From: Delphinus delphis
Lineage: Eukaryota; Chordata; Mammalia; Artiodactyla; Delphinidae
Reading direction: 5' to 3'
DNA length: 64,000 bases
NCBI RefSeq assembly: GCF_949987515.2
Contig: NW_027192651.1
Coordinates: 1,116,001 to 1,180,000, forward strand
The notes beneath the pieces were generated by a model. The model saw nothing but the letters and a program-made list of their open reading frames with translations. It searched no databases and had not been told where the DNA came from. Position numbers and translations under genes: made by a program. Below, one piece after another: positions 1,412-17,163 of this stretch; within the stretch, counting starts at the first letter, position 1, and every line of letters begins with the position of its first letter.

Positions 1412-1972
1412 GATATCAGTAATACACGGAATGTAAACTTGGCTACACAGGAACTGAATTACACAACAGAACAGGGTCTCAAATTTAGAAAACCAACTTA
1501 TGCTTGCTTAAGGGTAAAGGTGAGTTGGGGTGCTGCATAAAACCAGAGATTGAAATGAGCACAGATAAAGTTCCTTAAGCCAAATATGGAATAGACAAGA
1601 GCTACTCCTTGCTCAACGAAATGGACTCAACACCCCATATTAAACGCCTAAGAATGTTCCTGACTAGTAAGTATCTTAAAACCTATGGATTGCTATGTCT
1701 CCGAAAGAGAATCAAGCATGTGTACAGGGGCATAAACGCAGCAGTGATAGGATTGGAGAGGTTCGTGAGCAAATGAAGACCCTTTGAAGTCATATTGCAT
1801 GGTACCCATTCCATGGGTTTCAACTACCCAGGTTTAAGGTATTCTTCCTTCAGCTAAAACATGCATGTGGAACCTAGAGTATGATCAACCATGTGATCGG
1901 GAGACGTGTTCAAATATGTCTCAGTTTTCGTACGCTGGTACTCGGGTGCAACATTCCAGACGCTTTACTAAC

Positions 1973-1992
1973 ACTCTCCCCACTTGGAGAGT
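1973..1992. repeat. Short hairpin in the non-LINE-1 half (reference copy, M2)
   Basis: ACTCTCC and GGAGAGT form a 7 bp stem around a 6-base loop. It is present at the same position in most monomers. A' units M4, M7, M30 and M36 carry a G in the loop-side base next to the stem, and M30 loses one stem pair (GAGAATC). No known role; it may be chance. Confidence 0.5.
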
Positions 1993-2417
1993 CAGTCCCT
2001 TTAACCTCCTGTTTGGCCCAGTTTGCAATTTCTGTGGAAGATGAACAGGAATAGCGAGAACCAATGAGAGACTAGGTGGAGGTGTCTGGATGGGCAAATT
2101 TAACTCTCATTTCCCACCAGGAAGAGGAATTAACCAAAGGCTCAGCGTGCCGTGCCAGAACCAGATTAGGGCCTGAAGACATCCTGCGGTGTTGCGGCCA
2201 GGTCACAAGAAAGCGAGTTGAAGAAAGGAGTTCAGGGTCACTGTAATTCACAAACCTGCAGAGTTATAAATGACAGCTATCGTCCAAAAATAGACTGAAG
2301 TAAGGCTGCCAAGAGGACTTGAAAGTGGGGCAGAATTGCAGGAAACCGATTTCAGGAGGTAGACTGGAATTGCATTGAAAGCATAGGAAAAGAGGCAGAA
2401 CGTCCACAATGATGCAC

Positions 2418-2489
2418 TTGGCCAAAAAGGGCGTATGCGTTTTTTCCTGAATATATTCAGGAAAAAACGCATACGCCCTTTTTGGCCAA
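2418..2489. repeat. 72 bp perfect palindrome (reference copy, M2)
   Basis: Two 36 bp arms with no spacer. The sequence starts TTGGCCAAAAAGGGCG, is centred on TCCTGAATATATTCAGGA and ends CGCCCTTTTTGGCCAA. The flanks (C on both sides) break the symmetry, and no direct repeat flanks it. It recurs once per monomer. Of 35 complete copies in the window, 24 are perfect, 7 have one mismatch (M8, M11, M13, M16, M25, M32, M34) and 4 have two (M1, M3, M6, M9). It could form a cruciform or, if transcribed, a 30-bp-plus hairpin RNA; both are inference. The recurring 84-85 aa minus-strand frames run across it and are not genes. Confidence 0.95.
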
Positions 2490-13242: not shown

Positions 13243-13689
13243 GGGCGGAGGTCGGGGCTGCGTAGTGGGAGGCGGACTGTTGAGGGGCGCGGAAGAGCTG
13301 CAGGTGCGGCCCAGCGGCCGATTCCGCGGGCCCGCCGAGCCAGGAGGTACTGAGCCGCCGCCGCCGCCGCCGCCGCCCTCGGCCCGGCCTGCAGCGGGGT
13401 ATGGGGGCGGTGCGGCCCCTCGGCCCCCTCCCCCTCTCTCCCTCCTCTCCACCCCTCCCCTTCCCGTGGTCCCGGGCTCCCGGACCCTCCCCCAGGGCCG
13501 CATTCTCCTCTCCCCGTCTTCCTGTCCTCTTCCGCTGTCCTCTCGTTCCCCACCCCCAAGCATAAACACCCCTCCGCGTCCCAGGCGTCTCCCGTCGCCC
13601 CTCCCCCCTCCCCGGGGGTCCGCCCTCCAGCGTTCCGGGGGTTCCCGAGGTCTCTCCAGCGGCAGCTTTCTGTAAGCGCGGTCCCGAAG
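13243..13689 (+). other. PCMTD2: GC-rich 5'UTR of retrocopy 2
   Basis: 447 bp matching 4580-5026, including the GCC run at 13354-13377 and the CCCCTCCCC-rich tract. I saw no difference from copy 1. Confidence 0.75.
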
Positions 13690-14770
13690 ATGGGAGGCGC
13701 GGTGAGTGCTGGTGAAGACAACGACGAGCTGATAGACCATCTGAAGGCGGCGCAGTACATCCGCTCCGAGCTGGTGGAGCAGGCCTTCCGAGCTGTTGAC
13801 CGCGCCGACTATTACCTCGAGGAGTTTAAGGAGAACGCGTACAAGGACCTGGCATGGAAACACGGGAACATCCACCTCTCTGCTCCGTGCATCTATTTGG
13901 AGGTGATGGAGGCCCTGGACCTGCAGCCTGGCCTTTCCTTCCTGAACCTGGGCAGCGGCACCGGCTACCTCAGCTCCATGGTGGGGCTCATCCTCGGTCC
14001 TTTTGGTGTGAACCACAGGGTGGAACTCCATTCAGATGTGACAGAGTATGCGAAGCAGAAGCTGGACTTTTTCATCAGGACGAGTGACAGCTTCGACAAG
14101 TTTGACTTCTGCGAGCCCTCCTTCGTCACCAGCAATTGCCTGGAGATCTCTCCAGGCTGCTCTCAGTATGACCGGGTGTACTGCGGGGCAGGCGTGCAGA
14201 AGCAGCACGAGGGGTACATGAAGAGCCTCCTCAAAGTCGGGGGCGTCCTGGTCATGCCGCTGGAAGAGAAGTTGACTAAGATAACTCGGACGGGTCCTTC
14301 CGCCTGGGAAACCAAAAAGATTCTGGCTGTGTCTTTTCCTCCACTCGTCCAGCCCTGCCAGTCGGAGTCAGGAGAATCACGACTTGTCCACACCCCTGGC
14401 GGTTCGCAGCCTCCAGGACCTGGCGCGCATTGCCATCCGGGGCACCATTAAGAAGGTCATCCACCAGGAAGCTGTGAACAAAAACGGGAACGGACTGAAG
14501 AACACTCCCAGGTTTAAACGGAGGAGAGTTCGCCGCCGCCGAATGGAAACGATTGTCTTTTTGGACAAAGAGGTGTTTGCCAGTCGGCTCTCCAACCCCT
14601 CTGATGACACCAGCTGCGGAGACCTGGAAGACGAGCGGCAAGAAGAAGAGGTGACAACCCCGCCGGACACCAAGCCCGAGCCCCCGGTGAACTTCCTGCG
14701 TGAGAAGGTCCTGAGCCTCCCTCTGCCAGATCCCCTGAAGTACTACCTGCTTTATTACAGAGAAAAGTAA
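13690..14770 (+). pseudogene. PCMTD2: PCMTD2 coding region with one frameshift (retrocopy 2)
   Basis: Same structure as copy 1. ATG is at 13690. The N-terminal 233 or so codons are in frame, with SAM motif I at about residues 84-94. The shift falls near 14384-14403, the out-of-frame stop at 14449-14451, and the C-terminal part runs to TAA 14768-14770. Conceptual proteins are identical to copy 1 in every frame I compared, so the lesion predates the duplication. The product would lack the basic and C-terminal segments, so a functional PCMTD2 is not expected from either copy. Confidence 0.93.
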
Positions 14771-17147
14771 GTCTGTGGTCCAGGGGAGGAGGCCAAGCCT
14801 TCCTGGAGGGCTGCCCGCAGCAGGTGCACTGGAGGAGGAAGGGGCTCCCGCTCTGCATCTCGTCTTCTCGTCTGTCCTTGACTGTCCTGTAGAGTTTTCA
14901 TCCAGTCATCTGATTTCTGTAAACATAGTCTGACAAACATAAGGTGCAAGGGGGAATGTCTCAAAAGGGCGAGAGTCTCCTGGAGGAGGGGTTGACTTCA
15001 CACTCTCAGGAAATGCTGAGGTCTACACGTGGAGGTGGCCTGGAGACCGTTTCTTACACAAGGTACACGTGTCTGCATCAGAAAGGAAAACTGAAGTTGA
15101 AATTAATCTGTGTTTCTTATAAAAGGTGAGACAAAAAGCACAAGTTGCTAAGTGTATGAAATCTTTTCTGAGTGGGACACGCCTATGTGCAAGTTTGAAT
15201 TTTACGGAATCAACCTCTTAATTACTGGCACCGAGTAATTAAAGATTTATTAAAACATTAATTTAAAAGATTTAACTAAATGTTTTAGTTATTTGGAACG
15301 TGGATACTTGATTGAAAAGCCCTCTCTTATTTTAAGTAAATTAATTACATCTTACGTGAGTTGTCAATTGTAATTTTAAAAAACAAAAATTGTGATGGGG
15401 AGAGGAATGAACGTATCAGATTGCCAGGTGTCTTTGTGGAATTGCAAAAGAATTCCAAGGCATTTTTTTCTGACACCTTTTGTTACCTTTAAAGTAACCA
15501 ACATTGAGTAATCCCGTCAAAGAAAGTCCTGAAGAATGAAACAAGTGTTGTGTGTAAGTAATGAGCTGCATTACTTTTGCCCCAGAGACAGAGAGTACTG
15601 TTGACTCAACTTTAAATACAGTCAACGGTGTCTAAGGCTCAGTCCTCAGAGCAGGTGGGAAGTACTGGCTGCAGGAAATGGATTGGGGACGGTGTAGACG
15701 GCCTGTGGGTTGGTGTTTTGTTTTTTTTTTCAGTTGGCTATTGTTCTGTAATCACATAACAGTACTGATTCATAGATTTTATCTTTTATAATTCTGGAGA
15801 AAAATATTTGTTAGTTTTGTAATTTTTCCTAAGAACAAACGCGTGTTTGGTACATTGCATTAGAACAGTTTCACTCAAGTTTGACTTGTGGAATCCATCT
15901 TCTCCAGCGCTGTGTGTTGAGAGCTTCCTGTCTTATTAAGTCGTGGGTCTAGAAGAAGAGGCCGTCCTTTTAGTTAGGTGGCAGGATGTTTACAAGTGAC
16001 ACTGCTTCTTCCAAAACATTGGTTCTTTTCAGACTTTTCAGTTTTAACCAAAGTTAAACCCCAAATCAGAGTCATCCAGATTTTATGATTCATTTGATCT
16101 CTCAGCCTCTCAGGAGTTGCTGGATTTCAGTGTCTTTGTGGTTTTACCCGCTTCGCGGAGTTCTGGTTATTTTGTTTTGCCATTTATGCTTTTTTAAAGT
16201 AACTGAGTCATTTTATCACAGAACACTGCGTGCACACATAGCTGGGAAAGCGGGTATATTGCCCTAAATGGGTACCGTTAAGCTGTTGTAAAGAAGGGTT
16301 TCTTCATAGTCGTGTTTACCTGCCTTTAACTGAACGTCAAGCCTCATTGTCTCAGAGAGAAAAGCATGAGTCACGTTTACTTGCTAAGACTTCGGTTTGC
16401 AGATCTTGTTGACGTCATTCTAATTGATTTGTAGAGACCTCTGCAACACGTGGACGTTTTTGGACATGATATCTGAAATATTTTATATTAGGTGGCTTGA
16501 CTAAATGTTTTTCTGTAATTGTATATGGATTTCCTTTTTTTTCAACCACATTTGCCTTTATGCTAGATTGTAGAAAGTCTTTGCGAGGCATAAGACATGT
16601 TTTCCCCTATGTATGTTAAACCTTTCCTAACATTTTGTATTTACATGTTGGTTTGTGACTTTTAAACCAGAATTTGGTTACAAGATATATATATATAGAT
16701 ATTGAATATAATATATGTGAAATAATTTGGTATTGATCTATCTAATAAACATAAAGGAGAATCATCAGTGAGTTTCCCTGTGTGTCAGCACCTTTCTCCG
16801 GAGTCAGTCTGAGACACTACTTTCTGTTTTCAGACAGATGACTTATATATATAGTCTGTGTTGTCTGCAAGCTCTGTATTGTAAACCACATTCTAGACAA
16901 TGGCTGACTTTTGTGTTTCGATTAGTCTGTATTTTTATATGTGACTTTCGTCTTGCAAGTAGTGCAGCCATAGACATGTGCAAAACAAGCAACAAATGTA
17001 TAATATTAAGCACATAAGACAGAAGCCAGCTGCGTATTTAAAAGTATTTTTGCCCATCTGGAACTTTCAGGGGATTAAGGCGAGAAATATGAAACAAAGG
17101 TTTTGATGAACTGATACACAAGCGATACCAATAAAGGTAGTTACGGC
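14771..17147 (+). other. PCMTD2: AT-rich 3'UTR of retrocopy 2
   Basis: Matches 6108-8484 at an offset of 8663. The only substitution I saw is C17144 for T8481, next to the poly(A). No separate gene or mobile element is recognised. Confidence 0.8.
17130..17135 (+). promoter_or_regulatory. Polyadenylation signal AATAAA, retrocopy 2
   Basis: AATAAA 12 nt before the poly(A) at 17148, as in copy 1. Confidence 0.85.
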
Positions 17148-17163
17148 AAAAAAAAAAAAAAAA
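17148..17163 (+). repeat. Poly(A) tail of retrocopy 2
   Basis: Sixteen A residues, three more than in copy 1. This gives a 3 bp length difference between the two higher-order units. Confidence 0.9.

Follow-up and report, generated by a model that had tools for sequence, protein, structure and literature searches.

The nearest known arrangement to the one described here is that of DUX4, a retrogene carried by the human D4Z4 macrosatellite (PMC5849414, PMC3616921). We analyzed a window of 64,000 nucleotides from Delphinus delphis (NCBI RefSeq assembly GCF_949987515.2, contig NW_027192651.1, hereafter C27, positions 1116001-1180000, forward strand), in which a retrocopy of the PCMTD2 gene twice interrupts a satellite array. 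As in D4Z4, an intronless retrogene is embedded in a tandem repeat of subtelomeric position and multiplies with it. In D4Z4, the retrogene is present in each unit and is functional, whereas most monomers of the window are empty and no selection was seen. The insertion event in the window is also young and its copies lie on many contigs, which again sets it apart from D4Z4.

Looser parallels are given by the amplified gene fragments of the Eremias velox W chromosome (PMC8160951) and by the retrotransposed sbno2 and simc1 pseudogenes of a Psalidodon B chromosome (PMC12758807). There, a gene copy was likewise multiplied in a heterochromatic, repeat-rich setting, but on one special chromosome, whereas the PCMTD2 copy lies within a defined satellite monomer on several contigs. 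A literature search, within the portions of text that it covered, found neither a PCMTD2 retrocopy reported from satellite DNA nor a host gene reported as passenger of a cetacean satellite, the classical satellite papers being outside its reach.

Processed pseudogenes are products of the L1 machinery. The PCMTD2 insert resembles them in its lost introns, its poly(A), its 12-bp target-site duplication and its start in exon 1 of the parent gene, but unlike ordinary processed pseudogenes it would have been amplified secondarily as DNA, together with the satellite, and not by further retrotransposition. It also resembles satellite higher-order repeats, in which near-identical multi-monomer units stand amid diverged monomers, except that there is no fixed unit but a ladder of insert plus k monomers. 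Our results indicate that the element is very probably a young PCMTD2 retrocopy of single origin which has travelled as a passenger of the satellite and has reached at least two ends of chromosome-scale contigs.

Results

The PCMTD2 retrocopies of the window

A blastn comparison with one monomer showed that the whole window (1..64000, + strand) is a head-to-tail satellite array with 36 monomer starts, a period of about 1579 bp and monomer spacings of 1576-1581 bp, broken only by two inserts. The same insert interrupts two monomers, and the retrocopy is thus carried by 2 of the 36 monomers begun in the window, most of the others being empty. The mean pairwise divergence among the 35 complete monomers is 2.19%.

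A PCMT domain is encoded in the insert, and a SOCS-box-like end comes after it in a different frame; the best protein match of the insert among the matches listed was PCMTD2 of the porpoise Phocoena sinus, at 97% over the full query. Retrocopy 1 (4580..8495, 3916 bp including the poly(A)) corresponds to a full-length spliced mRNA of six exons, with an AATAAA polyadenylation signal (8467..8472) preceding the poly(A) tail, while retrocopy 2 (13243..17161) measures 3919 bp including the poly(A). Both end in poly(A) and both are flanked on each side by the 12-bp target-site duplication AAGATATCAGTA, found at 4568..4579 and 8496..8507 for retrocopy 1 and at 13231..13242 and 17162..17173 for retrocopy 2; all of these features are on the + strand. 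An earlier, sequence-only reading of the window had claimed a shared insertion base and a shared 12-bp duplication for the two retrocopies, and the AAGATATCAGTA flanks bear this out.

Copies elsewhere in the assembly

The assembly (2.66 Gb in 630 contigs) was searched with two queries. The best 40 of the 525 candidates obtained with a 161-base query over the left junction were scored and were all full-length at 98-100%, some of the 525 being perhaps plain satellite; the best 40 of the 212 candidates obtained with an 811-base coding query were all aligned end to end at a rounded 100%. The two lists combined gave at least 61 distinct copies on at least 27 contigs, in a single orientation within each contig, this count of copies being a lower bound. 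The multi-copy PCMTD2 retrocopy family that the sequence-only reading had predicted beyond the window is therefore present.

We then compared the insertion sites of 42 of the 61 listed copies, two in the window, 20 fetched whole and 20, from 16 other contigs, fetched by both edges. The same insertion base, 12-bp target-site duplication, poly(A) and both junctions were found in 42/42, with point mutations in a few, and none differed in its insertion site. The 20 whole copies agreed at both junctions, in the duplication and in the poly(A), and the 20 edge-fetched copies had the same junctions, three of these carrying a point mutation in a junction word.

The parent gene and the apparent frameshift

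The parent PCMTD2 gene is located on the minus strand of contig C15, from 50489 to 31803, in six exon blocks, and its exon-6 pattern was found at one place, on C15. All five parental introns are absent from the retrocopy, which starts within parent exon 1. The first base of the retrocopy is a G where the parent has a C, as a G derived from the cap would give. Inspection of C15:28500-54300 also showed that only some 32 kb separate the parent gene from the start of this 88-Mb contig, so that the gene itself is near a contig end.

The frameshift that had been attributed to both retrocopies does exist as an offset of 5 nt relative to the long frame, but its reading as a lesion did not stand. Parent exon 5 reads CTTGTCCA, then GTTAC, then gtgagt. 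The donor used in the retrocopy is the first GT, 5 bases upstream of the other donor, and it is joined to the acceptor before CACCCC; the resulting exon 5/6 junction (CTTGTCCA/CACCCC, 5727..5728 in retrocopy 1) is the source of the apparent shift. The open frame of retrocopy 1 (5027..5788, + strand, 253 aa) is that of the PCMTD2 short isoform: its C-terminus is the annotated C-terminus of a porpoise isoform (P0001), and the main features of this C-terminus are also those of a Cebus isoform (P0007). Because the parent holds the alternative donor and annotated isoforms match it, the 5-nt shift is a splice form and not a mutation, and a true frameshift was rejected in favour of a second, alternative splice donor in the parent. 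The GC-rich 5' portion, which might have been a retained intron, is parent exon 1, and this reading was rejected as well.

Single origin, age and lineages of the copies

Comparison of the parent with the majority sequence of the copies showed 17 differences in 3895 aligned bases, 13 gap columns, some of which may come from hand-set exon edges, being set aside. Fifteen of the 17 substitutions were fixed in 22/22 full copies, while the parental base was kept by 10 and 11 copies, respectively, at the other two sites. These fixed substitutions point to one retrotransposition. Several independent retrotranspositions of PCMTD2 at a preferred satellite site are conceivable, the target sequence being present in most monomers, but the copies share the same base, the same target-site duplication and the same 5' start in 42/42, together with the 15 fixed substitutions, and we regard this explanation as extremely improbable. 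The sequence-only proposal of one retrotransposition followed by exchange within the satellite is strongly supported by the same junctions and substitutions.

The divergence among the 22 full copies was 0.42% on average, with a maximum of 0.79%, and fell to 0.19% and 0.39%, respectively, outside CpG columns. Substitution rates lie at 0.5 to 1 x 10^-9 per site per year. At such rates, and with little erasure by concerted evolution, the divergence suggests that the insertion took place about 2.5-6 million years ago.

In the tree of the copies, eight C27 copies group with the two C8 copies at a support of 100/98; another copy from C27, the ninth (L015), is placed among the copies of other contigs. 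Polarised single-nucleotide polymorphisms (SNPs) define at least four lineages of copies with shared derived SNPs. All four combinations are present at transversion sites 481 and 1097, which suggests exchange between copies.

The 8663-bp tandem duplication

Alignment of 1503-8497 with 10166-17163 showed two substitutions (3296/11959 and 8481/17144), a 3-base change in the poly(A) and nothing else. This is what the sequence-only reading had counted over about 7 kb, except that its first pair of positions, 3295/11958, is corrected by one base. The identity runs beyond 8497 to 9608 with three more substitutions (8684, 9010 and 9219), which gives a total of 5 substitutions in 8106 bp between the high-identity parts of the two duplication copies (1503..9608 and 10166..18274, + strand). 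Monomers M2 and M5 are indeed equal (0.00%), as had been noted, and M3 and M6 nearly so (0.06%), when the mean for window monomers is 2.19%.

The edges of the duplication were located on both sides. On the left, 21 substitutions are found in 1-983, which is the level of ordinary monomers, and three more in 983-1502, and the left breakpoint lies within 983-1502; on the right, M4 and M7 show 20 differences, of which 17 fall at 9609-10175, and the right breakpoint lies after 9608. Adding 8663 to the left breakpoint gives 9646-10165. The two edges thus fit the duplication of exactly one unit, with a hybrid monomer in register. This pattern is the apparent trace of one unequal exchange in register.

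The second copy in the window could also be an artefact of assembly, if two haplotypes were both written out or a loop of the graph was traversed twice, and 5 substitutions in 8106 bp are within the range of mammalian heterozygosity. However, the spacing of 8663-8666 bp was found at four other places (on C27, with 8666 and 8664 in one cluster and 8663 in a second, and on C94, with 8666), which makes a local assembly error unlikely. Spacings of 7085-7090 bp (C8 and C24) and of 11826 bp (C27 and C228) recur too, the junction monomer is in perfect register, and the copies form lineages by shared derived SNPs. An assembly duplication is thus, in our judgment, highly improbable.

Spacing and chromosomal placement of the copies

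Neighbouring copies are separated by less than 14 kb in 21 cases, and in 20 of these the gap has the length of one insert and between one and six complete monomers; with longer gaps included, the spacings that fit whole monomers comprise the insert plus 1, 2, 3, 4, 5, 6 and 9 monomers. The 8663-bp unit, proposed as a higher-order repeat by the sequence-only reading, is therefore real and recurs elsewhere, but it is not fixed and represents one rung of a ladder, that of the insert plus 3 monomers. On C27, the spacing order 5.5, 5.5, 11.8, 8.7 kb is seen in three clusters, at distances of 0.6 and 1.2 Mb, which points to the duplication of larger blocks as well.

Samples of C8 (110.5 Mb) were satellite in 10/10 cases at 0.2-1.8 Mb and in 0/7 cases at 2-5 Mb, while the very start of this contig and two samples near its far end were not satellite. 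On C12 (89.9 Mb), 7/7 samples were satellite up to 0.7 Mb and 0/5 beyond, one of these with a short L1-like match, and on C27 satellite was found in 7/8 samples. The insert is located in the terminal satellite blocks of two chromosome-scale contigs, C8 and C12.

Degenerate telomere-like repeats were seen at C8:1-200, at the C8 end and, inward of the satellite block, at 0.9 and 1.2 Mb on C12; they apparently form a second terminal repeat family. The sizes of six satellite contigs (C174, C96, C537, C300, C228 and C160) are whole thousands of bases. Scaffolding software cuts in 1-kb steps, and these sizes hint that the six contigs are scaffolding debris.

Probable exchange of the flanks with empty monomers

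Between contigs, the monomers that host the copies have diverged by 1.88%, against about 0.4% for the inserts themselves. Shared variants near the insert were found in 20/22 host monomers and in none of 21 empty monomers taken from the 33 complete insert-free monomers of the window. For 12 of the 22 copies, the flank divergence was then set against that of empty monomers at corresponding positions, 28 of the 29 empty monomers having been aligned. Relative to the empty level it was reduced to 0.44-0.84 on the left, up to about 640 bp from the insert, and to 0.33-0.72 on the right, up to 1200 bp; farther out it stood at 0.96-3.17, which is about that level or above. The raw flank profile is uneven because monomers vary along their own length, and the pattern is clear only against empty monomers at matching positions. 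It fits recombination of the flanks with empty monomers, in which the insert, having no partner there, could not take part.

These results bear on whether the insert spread mainly by the transfer of large subtelomeric blocks, that is, by segmental duplications passing from one chromosome end to another, while exchange on the scale of single monomers was rare. The common spacing order of the three C27 clusters and the terminal position of the arrays on C8 and C12 would be expected from such transfers. However, host monomers of different contigs are much farther apart than the inserts that they carry, and the flanks return to the level of empty monomers within about 0.6-1.2 kb, which argues for a piecewise replacement of the flanks; moreover, the ladder of insert plus one to six monomers needs changes in small steps. 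We therefore consider a spread mainly by block transfer to be rather unlikely, though a good deal less so than the other alternatives weighed here.

Coding frame of the retrocopies

The 253-codon frame is open in 18/22 complete copies, three others stopping at 230 codons and one at 111. The variants within this frame were 14 missense, 2 stop and 8 silent, when 14.4, 0.6 and 9.0, respectively, are expected for the same types of mutation in the absence of selection, and the frame shows no sign of selection. CpG transitions reached 0.160 per CpG position and 0.0152 elsewhere, a decay about 10-fold faster, as in methylated DNA, which would point to methylation in the germline.

Amplification could have been favoured by a useful PCMTD2 product, through dosage or through the short isoform, as for DUX4 in D4Z4, and both the number of open frames and the presence of the parent's GC-rich first exon in the insert speak for it. 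However, the variants occur as expected without selection, CpG sites decay rapidly, the splice form is a short one without the C-terminal part, and youth alone explains the open frames. A useful product is thus a very unlikely cause of the amplification.

The satellite monomer

Judging from its period, the porpoise PCMTD2 match and the large terminal blocks, the satellite of the window is probably the delphinid form of the common cetacean satellite. Its kilobase-sized monomer (1579 bp) and its large arrays at contig ends are also features of that satellite, whose period in Delphinidae we take to be about 1580 bp, in agreement with the spacings of the window. A review (PMC5615363) names common cetacean satellite DNA in its references. 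An Rfam scan of the window matched no family, and Tandem Repeats Finder found nothing in it with a longest allowed period of 500, which is below the unit of about 1579 bp.

The majority monomer holds a perfect palindrome of 68 bp (68/68; 843-910 of the majority sequence; for example, window 839-910 and 2418-2489). It is less variable than the whole monomer, with 0.58% of minor bases versus 1.41%, and could possibly form a cruciform or act as a hot spot of exchange. Near-identical monomers were also found two apart, M17/M19 (0.06%; 33121-37859) and M31/M33 (0.13%; 55230-59966), which indicates further recent exchanges without a retrocopy in this array. Monomer positions 1267-1322 match C12:3000001-3000200, a stretch of a chromosome arm which we take to be L1-like, with an identity of 78.6% over 56 bp; the monomer sequence near the insertion site therefore looks derived from an L1 3' end.

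Discussion

We propose that an mRNA of PCMTD2, capped and polyadenylated and with exon 5 spliced at its upstream donor, was reverse-transcribed and inserted once, presumably by the L1 machinery, into one monomer of a terminal 1579-bp satellite. Unequal exchange within arrays would then have multiplied the insert, one or more whole monomers at a time, while duplications of larger blocks would have repeated a cluster of about 40 kb on C27, and exchange between arrays would have carried the insert to different chromosome ends.

Several observations weigh against this scheme or limit its reach. The insertion site reads AT/AAGA (window 4566-4571), which is only a partial match to the L1 endonuclease consensus, TT/AAAA. 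The copies were drawn from the best-scoring matches, which biases the sample toward similar copies, and 11 of the 19 inner branches of the tree are weak, its bootstrap not having settled. The gap of 13636 bp on C24 is the sole one under 14 kb that departs from whole monomers, and that of 20493 bp on C441 fits only with an unlisted copy in between. Finally, the 25 contigs other than C8 and C12 are unplaced, measure at most 5.75 Mb and may stem from few chromosomes.

The more general proposition, that the terminal arrays of different chromosomes exchange DNA often enough for one monomer variant to reach many ends within a few million years, is one that we hold to be evenly balanced. The rate and the route of satellite movement between chromosomes are an old question, monomers carrying no tag. 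If the proposition is true, the insert would be a tracer of unique sequence with which transfer from array to array, unequal exchange and gene conversion could be measured separately. With a unique tag of 3.9 kb and the parent gene as outgroup, it is possible to count, root and date the copies and to map reads to them, while the flanks of the tag show how quickly linkage breaks down. For annotation, the young multi-copy "PCMTD2-like" family is a warning, as it is satellite DNA and not the expansion of a gene family, which matters for studies of copy number.

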